NCBI RefSeq assembly: GCF_022201045.2
Contig: NC_068563.1
Coordinates: 1,116,001 to 1,180,000 of the forward strand
Source: Citrus sinensis
Taxonomy: Eukaryota > Streptophyta > Magnoliopsida > Sapindales > Rutaceae
Length of the DNA: 64,000 nucleotides
Direction: 5' to 3'
Each line of letters opens with the position of its first letter. Position 1 is the stretch's first letter. A program made the translations under genes and the position numbers. Shown here piece by piece: positions 4,469 through 49,900 of the stretch. The notes under the pieces were generated by a model, which worked only from the letters and a program-made list of their open reading frames with translations, was not told where the DNA came from and ran no database searches.

Positions 4469-5639
4469 TTATTCTATCCTTTTAGATTAGAGGAGAGTTT
4501 CTTTCTTCTTATGGACATTCACTATGTCTCAAGACTTGATGAAGTTTCTGTTGACATAAGCGCCACCAGAATATCCCCGTACTACTGGCAACTTGATTAA
4601 CCAGATGATGGCTGAATCTGGGTTTATTATTCATTATAGTTAAAACGTATCAAGGAGAGAAGCTTTGTATAGAATTCCAGAATTACGAATTTGAAGATGA
4701 TTCCATTTGTTCTTCTTTAATGGATCTGATATGGCTGAAATTAATTATCAGCATTTGTAATCATAGCGATGCTAACTTTAACGTACCCTGCTTCATCATG
4801 AATGTATTCTAAAATCGTTAAAAGCAATAATTTCCTTTCCTTTACTTTTGCTTCTTTTTTTATTTTATTAGAAGAATCTTGTTGACTTTATATTCCACCG
4901 GTTTGGTATGACAAGATGCTAGCATAATTAGCTGATGTGAAAATTCATTATTAAACTAAAGACTTTGGTTCAATCACCTATTTGATATTTACTACCGATT
5001 ACATATGCTCATGAAAGTTCCTGTGATTACAAATCCCGGTTTAGTTGATTGAATTACGGAGAATCTGAGGATCATAAAATTACTTCGGTGCTATTAAATT
5101 TAATTTCTCTGCTAGGAAAACTGTATAGCTGTATCTGTTGAGTGCTGCTGAGGACTACTAGTTCATGCCTAAATGATTTATGGGCAAGTCAGGGACATGA
5201 TGCCCATTCTTTCACAAGATGTGGATAGATATAACTCAGAAGTAGTATCTAGAATCCTGGAAAACTAATTAGTTTCTGTTGCTAGTATACCAATAATGGC
5301 ATGGATAAGCTGCTGTAGATAATGCGCATCTCATCACGGGAAAACTATGAAATACAATAATCCTAAGTCAACCCAGCACAGCTTATCTTTTAACAGATCC
5401 ACTAACTGCTTAATTTGGTGTTCTCACGGTTTTCCGATGAATTAAGAAATTGATCTTGTCCATGAGATGCAAGGCACGGCGCCAACCGGCAGCAGCCCAA
5501 GTACTAGGACTAAGTTCGGCCTGAAATGGCTTATTAGCAAGTGAGGTGCAGAAAAACAATAGCGGTCCACAAAGATAAAATGCAAGAACTATAGCCCAAG
5601 AAAGAAAGCTAATACATGACGGAAATGAAATACTAACTA

Positions 5640-40511: not shown

Positions 40512-40844
40512 CTACGGAAATATGTTAATTTTGATTAGGGCAGTCCTTTTGTTCTTTGCCATTTTTTCAACATAAGCTTTGTTGTTTGTTGTGTTTGCTA
40601 CTGCTATCTCTAGAGCAATTCTTGCCAGAGTTTCCAGGTCTGATATTGATGGAATTCGGGGATTGCGATCCAGAGCTGAGACACAGTCTATATAATTTTG
40701 GATTTGTCTGCGAACACAATCAACTAATTTTGATGCTGATGATTTCAGAATTGTGACATTTGTTGAGGAAAGGTAATGAAGAATTAAGAAGAAAGAAATG
40801 GCTCCCGCTAGTTGCTTCATGACAGCATTACTGAAGGAATCCAT
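40512..40844 (-). pseudogene. Truncated invertase/pectin-methylesterase inhibitor (PMEI)-like remnant
   Basis: A 110-residue reverse-strand frame starts with a hydrophobic leader (about 10-25) and has the first half of a PMEI four-helix domain. Cys43 and Cys54 lie about 10 residues apart (VDCVRRQIQNYIDCVSAL), then NPRIPSISDLETLARIALEIAVANTTN. These are the first disulfide hairpin and helix of the family, which inhibits cell-wall invertase or pectin methylesterase in the apoplast. Family members are usually about 170-200 residues; here the second disulfide and the last helices are missing, and the frame ends in unrelated AT-rich DNA. Most likely a truncated gene or relic; a missed 3' exon is possible but PMEIs are normally intronless. 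It sits alone between transposon relics. Confidence 0.55.
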
Positions 40845-43895: not shown

Positions 43896-45661
43896 CAACC
43901 CACAAAATATTAGAGTACAATAAGGCCTACGGAGAATCATATCGTTCCCAATTGTCGAATCGTATAAGTAAAGACTTGAATATGATCCTATTTGGAATTA
44001 AGGTGCTGTAACTTTTAAACTATAGCTGCTGTGAAAAAAAACTGTAACTATGAAAAAAAAATTAATAATATATAGTAAATATAAATTTTAAATAATAATT
44101 TTGACATAATTATTAAAAATATAATAGATTTTTTATTATACAAGTGAAAAATACTATCAACATAGTTTTCAATATATAACAATTAGTATTTACCAAATAT
44201 TTTAGTGTTGTAACTTTTAAACTATAATTACCCAATATCAATCCCAAACACACTCTACATCTGTAATTGGAATAAGTTACAACCCTCTCATTGCTTCCTT
44301 GTTGGTGTTTTGAACAATAACCTGAGGTGCCTTTTAACTTCACTCCAATGAATAAGGCAATGTCGAAATTGGGCCTTAGTTTTGTCTTGGCCTACTAAAT
44401 TGTACATTCTTGATTCTTGAATGTGGAATCATTTGGGGCTGGACACAAGGACGACGTGTCACTCACAATTGAAATAAAATTGGCAATATGCAGTATCGTT
44501 GGGTTGACTACTTTTTAATTTTTTAAATATTTCATTGCAAATCTATTAGTTTTCTTTTTTTTTAATACCAAATATCTACTAGTACCCCTCTTAGATAAAC
44601 TATATTACCAAGATCTTCAAAATTAATTCTGTTATAGTTAATTCAAGGCTTTAGAATAAATCCTATCTACCTTTAAATATTTAAAAATAATATATAAAAA
44701 TTGAATTGAAGACTGGCAAAATCTTTTTTTAGATTTAGTAAAAAATGATAAGGCCTAAAATATGGCAATCGGCTAGGGCCTCAAATTCATTAGAACAGCC
44801 CAAAAAATAAAGTCTTCTCATCATTTTTGACATTGAAAGTTGAATTACAAAATAAAAATAGTAAAAAAGGAACCCTTTTCAATATCTCAATTTAGTCAAA
44901 ATTTGGCAGTTACCTCAAGAGTCAAGTTGAATGTGATCAAAATGTTGGATCTTAATGAGTTTCTATTGTTTTTTCACTACTTTTTGAGGTCTAAGTTATA
45001 GATTTTTTTTTTTTTTGGAGGGGGATAAATTGGTCAGTAAGGACCAATTGGTCAGTAAGAACCCAATTTTACTACCATTAGAAATGGATTTGAATTTGAT
45101 ACAAGTGCACAACACTATGATAAAGGTTAGTTATAGAAACGAAAGTATTTCAGGCTTCTTTGAGGAATTCAAGTGTTTGACGCATTTCCAAAAGTGTTTG
45201 ATGAAACACTTGTGAGACAAAACTTAAGCAAAAGCAGAGCCACTCAGCAATCAGCATTGTAGATCAAGCAAGAAGATGCTGACACATTGCTGATGATTGA
45301 AGGATTTTAAGCGATAAGAACAAATGAGTCACCAAGTGAGAGAACGAACAAGAAATGTCCTTTCAAGGACCTGTGGTCCTAAGATGAATTTTAGATTTTT
45401 TTTTTTTTTTTTTTTTAATTTGTTACCATCTGGAAATATATCGCGATCCGGGTTCCGCCGAGAATCTAAATGCATATATTTATAGCGCAACTCAAAGGTA
45501 TATAGGATATAGCTCGAAAATCTACACCTAGTAAAAGAGACATATTTACTCACTAGAAATTATCCAATCAAGAATTTTACATTTTATTAAAGTTCGAAAA
45601 AATTATTATCTTATAATCTTGAACCATATGAGTTCTCATATACTCATATTAATATTTATGA
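43896..45661. other. Intergenic AT-rich stretch
   Basis: No gene. A T-run (about 45396-45417) next to ttgttaccatctggaaatatatcgcg may be the tail of an old retroelement on the reverse strand. A short direct repeat ggtcagtaaggaccaattggtcagtaagaacc is at about 45031-45062. Confidence 0.45.
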
Positions 45662-45779
45662 AGATATATCGGGAAATTTACACCAATAACCATAAAAATT
45701 TTAGTTTTTTCCATCTTAACCCCTCAAACAAATTTCTATCAACATTAGCCATAAAAGAACCGCTGAGACCAAATTACCC

Positions 45780-46162
45780 CTCTCTCTCATCTCCCTTTCC
45801 TCTTCCTCTTGCCTTCTTCTCTCCAGATCTCTACTAATTTCAGCATCCACCTCTTTCTTCTTCTTCTCTCTCCTATAATCCTCGTAATCGTTCGGTCTAG
45901 CGGGGTCATGCCCCTCGATTACGGTCAAAGTGACGTCGACCAATGCCAGTTGCGGCAGTGCTACCACGTCGTCAGGGGAAGGTGCGATTGTAGGTGAGGA
46001 ATGGGGTCTAGTCAGGAGAGAATTTTGGGTGGTTTTGGGTTTGGATTGGGGCTTGAGGATGGTTTGTGGTGGCGCGAAAATTGACCAGACAGTGGTGGTC
46101 GTGTTGGTGGGTTTGTCCTCATCGGAGGGTGGAGGTAGGTCTCCGTACAGCCCGCCTAGCAT
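45780..46162 (-). pseudogene. Captured 5' coding fragment of DRT111 (SPF45/RBM17-type splicing factor)
   Basis: From an ATG at 46162 the reverse strand reads MLGGLYGDLPPPSDEDKP, then VWSIFAPPQTILKP, then HDPARPNDYEDYRREKKKKE and a Glu/Arg-rich helix ERRRQEEEEREMRERG, before running into the terminal inverted repeat. These words, in this order, are the N terminus of plant DRT111, a nuclear splicing factor of the SPF45 family. The genuine protein continues with G-patch and RRM domains, which are absent. The short distance between VWS and FAPPQT suggests an internal deletion. The frame is still open for 148 codons because the repeat itself has no stop in that frame, so a chimeric peptide is conceivable, but nothing shows expression. 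Confidence 0.8.
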
Positions 46163-46388
46163 TTCGCAACGTGGCTTCTGATGGAAAATCCCGGGGAATT
46201 TGAATTCCGAAATTGGATTTTGGAGGATTAAAAAGCTGATTTTGTTTTATTGTTTGGGTTGTCGGATGAGATTCGATCTGAGGTAGAAGAAGATATTACA
46301 TACGAATAAGAAGAGACGAACAAAGACGAAAGGACTGGCGAAAACAAACAAATACTGAGGTAGAAGAAGGCAACATGTCGCACGAAGT

Positions 46389-46416
46389 TTGGTGCGACAG
46401 GTGCCTGTCGCACCAA
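46389..46416. repeat. Perfect 13-bp inverted repeat with 2-base loop
   Basis: ttggtgcgacagg and cctgtcgcaccaa are exact reverse complements separated by tg, inside the Pack-MULE. A third, partial copy (cctgttgcaccaaac) follows at 46425-46439. Confidence 0.9.
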
Positions 46417-46978
46417 GACTTGGGCCTGTTGCACCAAACTTCTTTTCGTTTGTAAAGAAGGGTAATTTGGGGAGAAAAACGTGTGTTTGGCTAATGTTGA
46501 TAGAAAAAAGTTGAAAGGGTTAATTGTGAAAATAGCAAAAATTTTATAGTTATTTTTGTAAATTTCCCAGATGTAACCACCTAACCATGTTATCCATAAT
46601 CATGTAAATGGATTTGAAATTGAGCCCATGAGGCTGAAACAGCTATTCTCATATGGACTCACGGTGATGAAGCAACTATTCACCACTCGGCTTGAATTTT
46701 TTATTGAATCATAGATTTTATTTTATTTTATTTTGAGAAATGGATATATAGCCATCATAATTTGCCAAATTTTGCCTCTTATGATAAAGGAAAAAGAGCA
46801 TTCAGATCTTTAAAGTTTACTTTAATGTACGAGTAAACATACATATCCTCTTTTGGTAGTAGTTTTCATTCATTTTTCAGACCTATATGGTGGTGGGATT
46901 GATATCACAAAAGGAGCGATGGAGGAGCAATGGAAAAGACACACGTATGATGTTGACCGTATGGTCCAAGCTAGATGT

Positions 46979-49900
46979 AAGTTTGTGTTTCCATTCTTGA
47001 CACTTTGGAGGTCTACCTATGCATTAAGATTCAACAGTTTGGAAGTCCATTTTCTAAACAGTAAAAAGATCAAATAAGGTGGTATATAACTATTTTAACT
47101 TAACAAAGGTTCTCATTTTAATGCTTGGAAATACAGTTATGTTAAATATTTATTGAGAGAGATTTGATGTCCTAATGGTCCTATTCATTTCAAATCTGAA
47201 TTAGCGAGAACCCAATATTTATTCGAGTAGTTTTCAAGTATTATTTTTTTTTAAGTCATTGGAGTTTGAGCTATGAGAAGGTAGAGAACTAAAAGATTAA
47301 TTTGGATTTGCCCTTCTCTATCATTTTGTAGGAAAACAACAATAATAACATCAACTAATTAAGTAGTAGGCCAAAGGAGAAAAAGACCGATTGAGAACAA
47401 GAAAAAGTGTCTTAAGAGTTATTTTCAACATGTCATTTTATGCCAAGTTATTTTCAACATGTCATTTTATGCCAACTCACTTGCAGAACTTTGGGTGTGT
47501 ATTTTTCTCCTTTGGGTGCTGGCCGCTTCTGCAACGTCGAATTCCCCCACAAATTGCCATGCAACTGCCTTCTATTCAGAAAGAGCATTATTTTATTGGG
47601 TATATATAATTTTATTGTAAAGACGCTTTCATTAATCTGTATATATAATACACAAGCACATTTCTTTACAACTTGACAAATTTTCCATCTTAAAATCATG
47701 CAACAAGCCGCAAAAGATTAGATTTTTTTTTTAAAAAAAAGAAAAAAGAAAAAAAAAAGTCAAGCTTTTTGGCCACAGAACAAATTTGCAGCCAACCGCG
47801 TCAATATCTAAAAGTTTAAAGTTCCAACTTGATAAAAACTAATGATAATGATCATTTTTTATTGGGTAAAGGCATGAAAGACGTTGCCACCATGGGGGGG
47901 TGGGGAATTAATGTAACAATAGATTATACTTCAGTCCTTCTTCTTCCCTCGAATCAAAGTGCATCGTACTGGAGCTATACATTGCAAAAAATAAGATGAC
48001 CAAAATCACCTCAAATGAAACATCCTACAACTTGCAGGAGTTTTTATGTTTATGGGTTAATTGGTGAATCCATCTTTGAATTTTAGATGCATGCAATTTG
48101 CAGCATATTCTCAGGAGAAACTGTTAAGACTCCTTTTTTTGTTTTCTGGGCATGCATGATTCATGCATACAGAGGCCGACATTATTTACTCGGTCTAGGG
48201 TCCCGTCCCTCTGATCACTTTCCGTCAGAAGTTGTAAAGTTATTGTCACGTACATCTCAAGCCTTTTGTTTATAGATCTTGAATTTACTAACCACAATAA
48301 TGTAGATGCCAATTGAACTGTGCACAACTGCACATAATGACATAGATTGATCGACATAGCCGCTGGGTTTTTTATCCTTCATTGTTTGTACATATGGCTT
48401 GAAATTATTTGCACGGCTTTTCATGTCGGGAAATTGCAGAACAAATTAATAAATGCAGAAGATATTATGGGCGACTTTTTCATTCAATTAGAAAATGAGT
48501 AAACTTACAGTCTACAACACATCTCCTTTATACGCACCACCACATATGTTCTTTCATACATTAGATAATTTCACGTATAGTGGACCCATTGATGCATATA
48601 CACAGCCTCAAGATGATTTTTTTTTTAAAAAAAAAATTTTTATGAAAGTCTAAGGATGAAATTTTATTTGTGGAAATTCTGTAAATTGAGGTTTTCTTTT
48701 TTAATCAAAATTTTCACTTGTGTTGCCAGTTCCATTAACCATAAGTAACCATTTATCTAGTATCTTTATCAGCCGCCAACAAGTTGAGTTGTCTTAAGCC
48801 AAGTGGATTGATTGATTAATCATAATGATTTGAGAAAATTAAACTTCAAAGATAAATTAACAAAAAAATTCAGATATTTGGTTTGTAGACAATCTAATAA
48901 TAAGTTTTAGAAGTTGGATATAATTGAGGGCACAAGAATGTTCATACTTCATGATATGCAGATGAAATCAATAAACTATTAATTATTTTACACGATTATA
49001 TTACTCTCATTTATATTATGTAAAATATAGTTAGCTCTAATTTCTCGTAGACTCTGTCGAAATAGTTTTATTATTGGGCAATTCAAATATCTGAGCCCCC
49101 AGAAAGAATTATGCATGCCTCTATATAATTAGACCTTGAAAGAAAACTCTCTTTCACAATGTTTATTAGATCATTATATTTCAAAACCATTGAATCTGCC
49201 AATATAAGTTTGTTAATGGCTGTCAATTATAAAAATTCAACAGCTCCATCTTAGATGTTTAAAATTTTTTTACCCAAACCCAACTGACAAAAAATGGTGC
49301 AGCTTTTGATAGCTACCTTTATTTATTTATTTATTTTTATGTCTAATTTATAGTTTTTGAAACTGGCCCTTGGGTGCAACTTGCAAGTTGAGTCAATATA
49401 AAATTAAATTCAGGTGACCCACAGAATTTTAAATTATTCACCATAAAATAAAAAAGTGACCACAGAAAACGAAAATCACGGTGCGCCACATGTGCGAGAA
49501 GCAAGTGACTGACAAAAACAGCTTAAAATTAGTTCCAATTTTTAAATCAACCCACTCATCTTTTTTATATTTAATTGTTTTAGTTAACAAAACAAGGCAT
49601 TTCATCGTAAATGCCTTTTGAGTTATTTATTGCGTTTGAAAATAATGAAATATGATTTAATGGAGATCTAATTCATAGAAGTTGAAAGATAGCTGAAATA
49701 TTAAACACATTGTCTATTTAACGCGACAAAATTATATAAGAGTAATGATAAATATTTTAATCTTTTTATTTTAAATAATGTGATATTTATTAATCGGTTC
49801 ATAATTCTTGACAAAATTTAAAGTTAATTAATTATATTATCTCACCAATCAATTGATAAATATCGTATCATTTGGGGTAATTATTTGAGATAAAAATTTA

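Follow-up and report, generated by a model that had tools for sequence, protein, structure and literature searches.

Results

An 898-bp Mutator-like element lies in the window on C8

The window is a 64,000-nucleotide stretch of a Citrus genome (G000:C8:1116001-1180000), and searches covered the 299.7-Mb assembly of 11 contigs to which it belongs. At window positions 45671-46568 lies a complete non-autonomous Mutator-like element (Pack-MULE) that holds a fragment of DRT111/SPF45, recognized by its ends, its target-site duplication and its recurrence elsewhere. The element reads GGGAAATTTACA...TGTAAATTTCCC and is flanked by a target-site duplication with a left copy, AGATATATC (45662-45670), and a right copy, AGATGTAAC (46569-46577), which are alike at 7 of 9 positions. 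Terminal inverted repeats occupy 45671-45783 on the plus strand and 46456-46568 on the minus strand. Within them, 45671-45751 and 46488-46568 form an inverted repeat of 81 nt that is 79% complementary, and a second inverted match (45769-45783 with 46456-46470) reaches 93% over 15 nt; in some other copies, the two ends align across 113 bp at 74-76%. The initial annotation had described Mutator-type terminal inverted repeats of ~110 bp and a diverged 9-bp flank duplication, and both are present (about 113 bp and 7/9, respectively).

All 898 bp were found again elsewhere in the genome, with identity up to 96%, and the 300 bp of left flank matched only themselves over their full length in the assembly, consistent with single-copy DNA. 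Because the 898 bp recur and identical 9-bp flanks are found for 32 of 35 elements (see below), this is an inverted-repeat element and not a chance pattern. Rfam returned nothing at gathering scores for window positions 44000-48000. The element has no transposase of its own, and its ends are common to a transposase-coding, damaged MULE relative. Elsewhere in the window, a weak match to pectin methylesterase inhibitor (PMEI, E 2.6e-5, below the curated cut-off) lies at 40512-40841 on the minus strand.

The captured DNA comes from a gene on C2

The genome was searched with the 148-aa frame of the element as protein query, and 150 of 160 candidates were scored. The sole strong match without family ends lies in the same assembly, at C2:27.993 Mb (C2:27993161-27993784, L039:4662-5285), which provides the donor locus that the initial annotation had proposed to look for. 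The donor stretch aligns to element positions 110-687 with 543 of 624 columns identical, 35 mismatches and 46 gap columns; counting aligned bases only, identity is 543/578 (94%). The captured stretch sits at the start of a 326-codon donor open frame that contains a G-patch (E 4.3e-17). A downstream donor frame on the same strand matches RRM_1 (E 4.8e-5) and, among solved structures, is closest to Splicing factor 45 (E 1.8e-25). Judged by these domain matches, the donor is a DRT111/SPF45 gene with G-patch and UHM-type exons, the exon borders being predicted; we take DRT111 to be the name of the plant relative of Splicing factor 45. Searches with the 148-aa frame alone gave no convincing match, either in Pfam (best E 0.14) or among solved structures (best E 2.1); hence it is the donor gene that identifies the fragment as DRT111.

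The capture amounts to 624 donor bases, 196 of them upstream of the ATG and the rest about 143 codons. In the window, the captured segment spans 45780-46357, with its sense on the minus strand, as placed by the donor alignment. Its coding part (45780-46162, ATG at 46162) has 127 codons homologous to the donor, and the remaining 195 bp (46163-46357) correspond to donor sequence upstream of the ATG, i.e., 5' UTR and/or promoter. A 45-nt in-frame deletion relative to the donor, flanked by a TTGAC direct repeat, is located at 46080/46081. The element therefore holds one colinear DRT111/SPF45 piece, made up of upstream sequence and the first ~143 codons less 45 nt. The proposal of an N-terminal fragment of a splicing-factor gene was upheld by this donor, as was the statement that the captured frame lacks G-patch and RRM, neither of which Pfam finds there. 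The stretch proposed for the donor search was 45780-46440; homology to the donor spans 45780-46357 and includes 195 bp upstream of the ATG. The coding part of the capture has no intron, and in the donor it corresponds to one open frame. The missing introns are uninformative on spliced versus unspliced origin because the stretch consists of one donor open frame plus upstream sequence.

One capture was amplified to at least 37 places

Besides the window copy, 29 further places matched the 148-aa frame, with E values from 1.4e-87 to 1.5e-73. At least 37 elements carry the DRT111 fragment, 30 of them fetched as L009-L038 and the others as L040-L046, where the initial annotation had seen one and suggested a search for more. 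Flanks were analyzed at 41 loci, comprising these 37 and four family elements without the fragment (L049-L052), with L011 and L038 represented by L047 and L048 from the same places. The right end was not found for two of the 37 fragment-bearing elements (L029 and L043). Identical 9-bp flanks were present in 32 of the 35 with both ends found, a few of which are simple A/T runs (e.g., L012 and L017) and weigh less; the remaining three match only in part (window copy and L037, 7/9 each; L031, 6/9, in an A-run). Flanks of the fragment-less L049, L050 and L051 agreed at 8, 8 and 9 of 9 positions, and L052 is incomplete.

Comparison with the donor was restricted to 31 of the 37 elements, with L042-L046 and L048 excluded as rearranged. 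The same 45 donor bases are absent in all 31 core copies (in L040, the deletion adjoins a larger gap), and therefore one capture took place, followed by amplification. In addition, 24 substitutions relative to the donor are common to at least 85% of the 31, one of which coincides with a gap in the alignment and is possibly artefactual. Across these copies, the captured segment is 92.5-94.8% identical to the donor. Over 690 bases, divergence among the copies ranges from 0 to 5.8% with a median of 3.2%; several are identical or set apart by a single base, so copying has been recent. The core copies thus descend from one capture, and the element is found at at least 37 places, nearly all with 9-bp duplications.

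Four of the 37 elements (L042-L045, type B) share the left junction of the core copies but only 4 of 11 fixed changes in the stretch compared, which places their separation earlier. The type-B element L044 (C8:1107434, outside the window) and the window element (C8:1161671) belong to different lineages and lie 54 kb apart on the same chromosome. The DRT111-bearing L048 (C8:2626000-2630600) has an extra insertion at element positions 887-1990 with a 368-codon frame that resembles a retrotransposon gag.

A transposase-coding relative on C5 has both matching ends

A relative of the element was found at C5:25823681-25829439. On its right side is a family end that is 92% identical to the left arm of the Pack-MULE and 77% to the right arm; on its left side, positions 22-110 of the Pack-MULE right arm are matched at 92%. 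The outer 21 nt of that left end and a matching flank duplication were not found. Separate frames of this relative match DBD_Tnp_Mut (5.5e-7), MULE (2.3e-10) and SWIM (1.9e-7), and the other strand matches DUF1985 (E 7.9e-21) and Peptidase_C48 (E 3.5e-8), so that a predicted Ulp1-type gene is present in the transposase-coding relative. Because the 92% matches hold arm by arm, each arm of the Pack-MULE can be assigned to its own end of the C5 relative: the left terminal repeat of the window copy to the Ulp1/DUF1985-side end and the right one, over positions 22-110, to the transposase-side end. A family end, the palindromic motif described below and a DUF1985 frame (3.4e-11) also follow one another in L052. 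The window element is non-autonomous and has the two ends of a MuDR-type, Ulp1/DUF1985-carrying MULE family. The C5 relative itself is damaged, with its transposase split over separate frames and one end incomplete.

Another transposase frame, of 738 codons at C5:25816698, lies ~12.6 kb from a family end and was also considered as the source; a similar spacing occurs at C5:25883102. We rejected it because the C5 element bounded by both family ends does not include this frame and has transposase frames of its own.

Capture junctions and later cargoes

At the left junction, the element end meets donor sequence inside a CT-rich stretch. At the right junction, the donor match stops at CTG and is followed by filler (46355-46373, defined by repeat comparison) that consists of a second copy of CTGAGGTAGAAGAAG, the first being 77 bp away at 46278-46292, and then GCAA. 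Positions 46362-46373 are also the reverse complement of 45809-45820, a purine-rich match of 12 bases that may be due to chance. This junction fits template switching. We propose that the pieces were acquired during repair synthesis, when short matches would have allowed the template to switch.

The four type-B relatives carry additional DNA from other loci, which represents three secondary cargoes. L045 is a mosaic, in order, of donor 4662-4869, donor 5245-5278, C2:31.35 Mb (98%) and C9:18.59 Mb (98%), with overlaps of 3 and 4 nt at two junctions as judged by BLAST ends; for about 200 bases of the C2-derived piece, a place on C6 is an equally good match. The cargo of L043 comes from C1:19.09 Mb (98%), C4:25.48 Mb (91%) and a repeat piece, with junction overlaps of 6 and 4 nt judged in the same way, and its C1-derived piece contains part of a Methyltransf_29 domain (E 2.9e-30). 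L042 and L044 have a common piece of C5:21.13 Mb (98%). One of the secondary sources is on the donor's chromosome, 3.4 Mb away, and the others are on other chromosomes. Most later pieces are 98% identical to their sources, compared with 94-96% for the DRT111 piece, a closer match that points to a younger age; the C4 piece in L043 (91%) does not fit, unless its true source differs.

Some family elements that lack DRT111 also carry cargo. One of them, L063, contains an LRR-like frame (LRR_14, E 3.7e-7, below the curated cut-off). L061 (C2:5978200-5980300) has a frame of 231 codons, which we take to resemble a GRAS/SCL protein and which has no Pfam match at E 0.01. Gene identities considered for the cargo of L045, L046 and L061 were dropped because they had no Pfam support. 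At C5:12567988-12595514, matches every ~1306 bp suggest a tandem repeat, a 100-bp piece of which lies inside L043.

A palindromic array is a hallmark of the family

A motif scan that allowed one mismatch identified a palindromic array near the right end of the window element (46376-46435), with four half-sites at 46376, 46391, 46406 and 46427, about 133 bp from the element end. Among 30 copies, the number of half-sites ranges from 2 to 25. The exact palindrome, TTGGTGCGACAGG-N1-3-CCTGTCGCACCAA, occurs at 115 sites genome-wide, and the pattern read backwards at none. Twelve array loci, the only ones fetched, were chosen by eye among the listed C1-C4 places where no nearby family end had been seen. 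A family end was present at all 12 (best match 84-93%), and in 11 the nearest array edge was ~320-475 bp from it; in the remaining locus, L067, two ends stand back to back. Two of the 12 (L073 and L074) are complete elements, both with identical 9-bp flanks, and in nine the 3 kb fetched contained just one end. The C5 relative has two clusters of five half-sites (one mismatch allowed), one near each end; as background, a neighbouring 9-kb piece (L058) has three scattered half-sites.

The greater the distance from a copy to the one nearest to it, the fewer half-sites it tends to have (Spearman -0.68 over the 30 core copies with both ends). When clusters were counted instead, one-sided permutation gave 0.020, 0.033, 0.0022, 0.0027, 0.0027 and 0.041 at six clustering thresholds, in a test of array size against amplification that was devised after the data were seen. 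These data indicate that the array is a hallmark of the family and that lineages amplified recently tend to have larger arrays.

The same trend would arise if arrays shrank as copies aged, and we lean towards the explanation that the array has no function and is an unstable repeat whose units have been lost from old copies, leaving the young ones with more. Repeat arrays expand and contract, CG is lost by mutation in older copies and leaves fewer half-sites, and L030 and L031, which belong to the largest young cluster, have just 4 and 5 half-sites. The excess of exact sites over the pattern read backwards, the family ends at every fetched array locus and the half-sites near both ends of the C5 relative could be held against this explanation, but they mark the array as a hallmark of the family and not as functional. 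A more speculative and rather doubtful proposal is that the TTGGTGCGACAGG-N1-3-CCTGTCGCACCAA array is a putative target of a VANC/KAONASHI-like anti-silencing protein from the Ulp1/DUF1985-carrying elements of the family and that lineages with long arrays were opened for transposition and amplified. In that case, by increasing the number of sites bound by its helper's anti-silencing factor, a gene-capturing passenger would promote its own spread; the array makes this link between anti-silencing and Pack-MULE spread directly testable.

The open frame changes as expected under neutrality

Among derived alleles, 110 of 168 are C-to-T or G-to-A; per-site rates are high where the context is CG or CHG, and the dominance of C-to-T changes suggests that the element is or was methylated. 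This spectrum, which is typical of methylated DNA, and the identity of 92.5-94.8% between donor and captured segment in 31 copies would both suit a role as regulator of the parent gene, in which DRT111 would be targeted, through its sequence similarity, by transcripts or small RNAs of the many copies. Maize Pack-MULEs and other elements are reported, in excerpts of a review, as reservoirs of siRNAs acting on donor genes (PMC13317346). We nevertheless regard such regulation as improbable here.

The 148-codon open frame (45716-46162, minus strand) consists of 127 captured codons and about 20 from the inverted repeat, as in the initial annotation, which had it open for 148 codons into the repeat and had raised the possibility of a chimeric peptide. 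A functional chimeric gene, with a selected peptide that might, for example, compete with SPF45, is very improbable, and the peptide proposal was not supported. Captured codons are free of stops in 24 of the 31 core copies, and seven have stops there (L018, L020, L029, L032, L034, L036 and L041, the last with a frameshift as well); L031 has a stop listed over the whole 148-codon frame. Changes among the copies (34 synonymous, 58 nonsynonymous and 6 stop) match the neutral expectation from the copies' own context-dependent spectrum (34.9, 65.6 and 3.8, respectively), with P = 0.44 for as few or fewer nonsynonymous plus stop changes; the power of this test is limited because the rates were estimated from all 690 bases and hence partly from those under test. 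No selection on the frame was thus found among core copies, and the frame lacks both G-patch and RRM. In favor of a functional peptide, five of six indels in the captured coding part are multiples of three (45, 12, 3, 3 and net 81, against 4; hand count), a weak hint of constraint, and the donor differs from the majority sequence with dN 0.028 and dS 0.058, to which the donor's own constraint contributes. We favor the reading that the open frame would be a by-product without selected function.

Discussion

We are highly confident in the explanation as a whole, namely a Pack-MULE with one DRT111/SPF45 capture that was then amplified to at least 37 places. Counting against it are the imperfect duplication of the window copy (7/9), the damaged state of the C5 relative and, as a weak hint of constraint on the frame, the indels in multiples of three. 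A DRT111 retrocopy later enclosed by MULE ends is scarcely credible: the missing introns, which would suit it, are uninformative for the reason given above, the stretch breaks off within the frame and also includes 196 bp on the upstream side of the ATG, the left junction is identical in core and type-B elements, and the whole unit is flanked by 9-bp duplications. As for mobility of the Pack-MULE, the shared ends suggest that it would move only when transposase made elsewhere acts on them.

The element is genuine and complete, a Pack-MULE of an ordinary kind whose donor is known and whose documentation is unusually full, and it offers a tentative lead on how passengers of this sort might evade silencing. 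One genome holds most of the parts for studying gene capture: the donor, the founding capture, at least 37 elements, later captures whose junctions can be read and a transposase-coding relative that matches at both ends.

Jiang et al. reportedly described the Pack-MULEs of rice in 2004. The Citrus element is like them in having Mutator-type ends, a host gene fragment inside and no transposase of its own. It is unlike them in that the Citrus family represents one capture in at least 37 elements and in that its ends belong to a Ulp1/DUF1985-carrying MULE with a palindromic array near one end. Rice Pack-MULEs are summarized in excerpts of PMC13317346 and PMC8903248; the former, a 2026 review, states that how DNA transposons take in unlinked gene fragments may be yet undiscovered. 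Captures in eudicot MULEs have already been published, with Arabidopsis, Lotus and melon named and grapevine reported in sections of PMC2528002. The grapevine MULE families described there are likewise eudicot, some with ULP regions and some with captured gene pieces; those sections, with which the comparison is by description only, mention no palindromic array. CitMule is also a Citrus MULE and has 9-bp duplications in three of four copies, but it is described, in the relevant part of PMC4334395, as a FAR1-type element of 6.9 kb with short degenerate ends, and the two are set apart by description.

Excerpts of PMC13317346, PMC6446971 and PMC12312487 do not mention such an array in a Pack-MULE; we make no claim that the idea is unpublished. 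Comparable systems are the KAONASHI and VANDAL elements, which, according to portions of PMC5735166, PMC10398659 and PMC13317346, are Mutator-like, carry Ulp1-type or VANC genes and have short motifs in tandem repeats in non-coding parts. VANDALs are described as having degenerate ends (PMC10398659, in part), whereas the Citrus family has inverted ends of ~110 bp. Ulp1-bearing VANC genes act on related elements, as described in PMC13317346.
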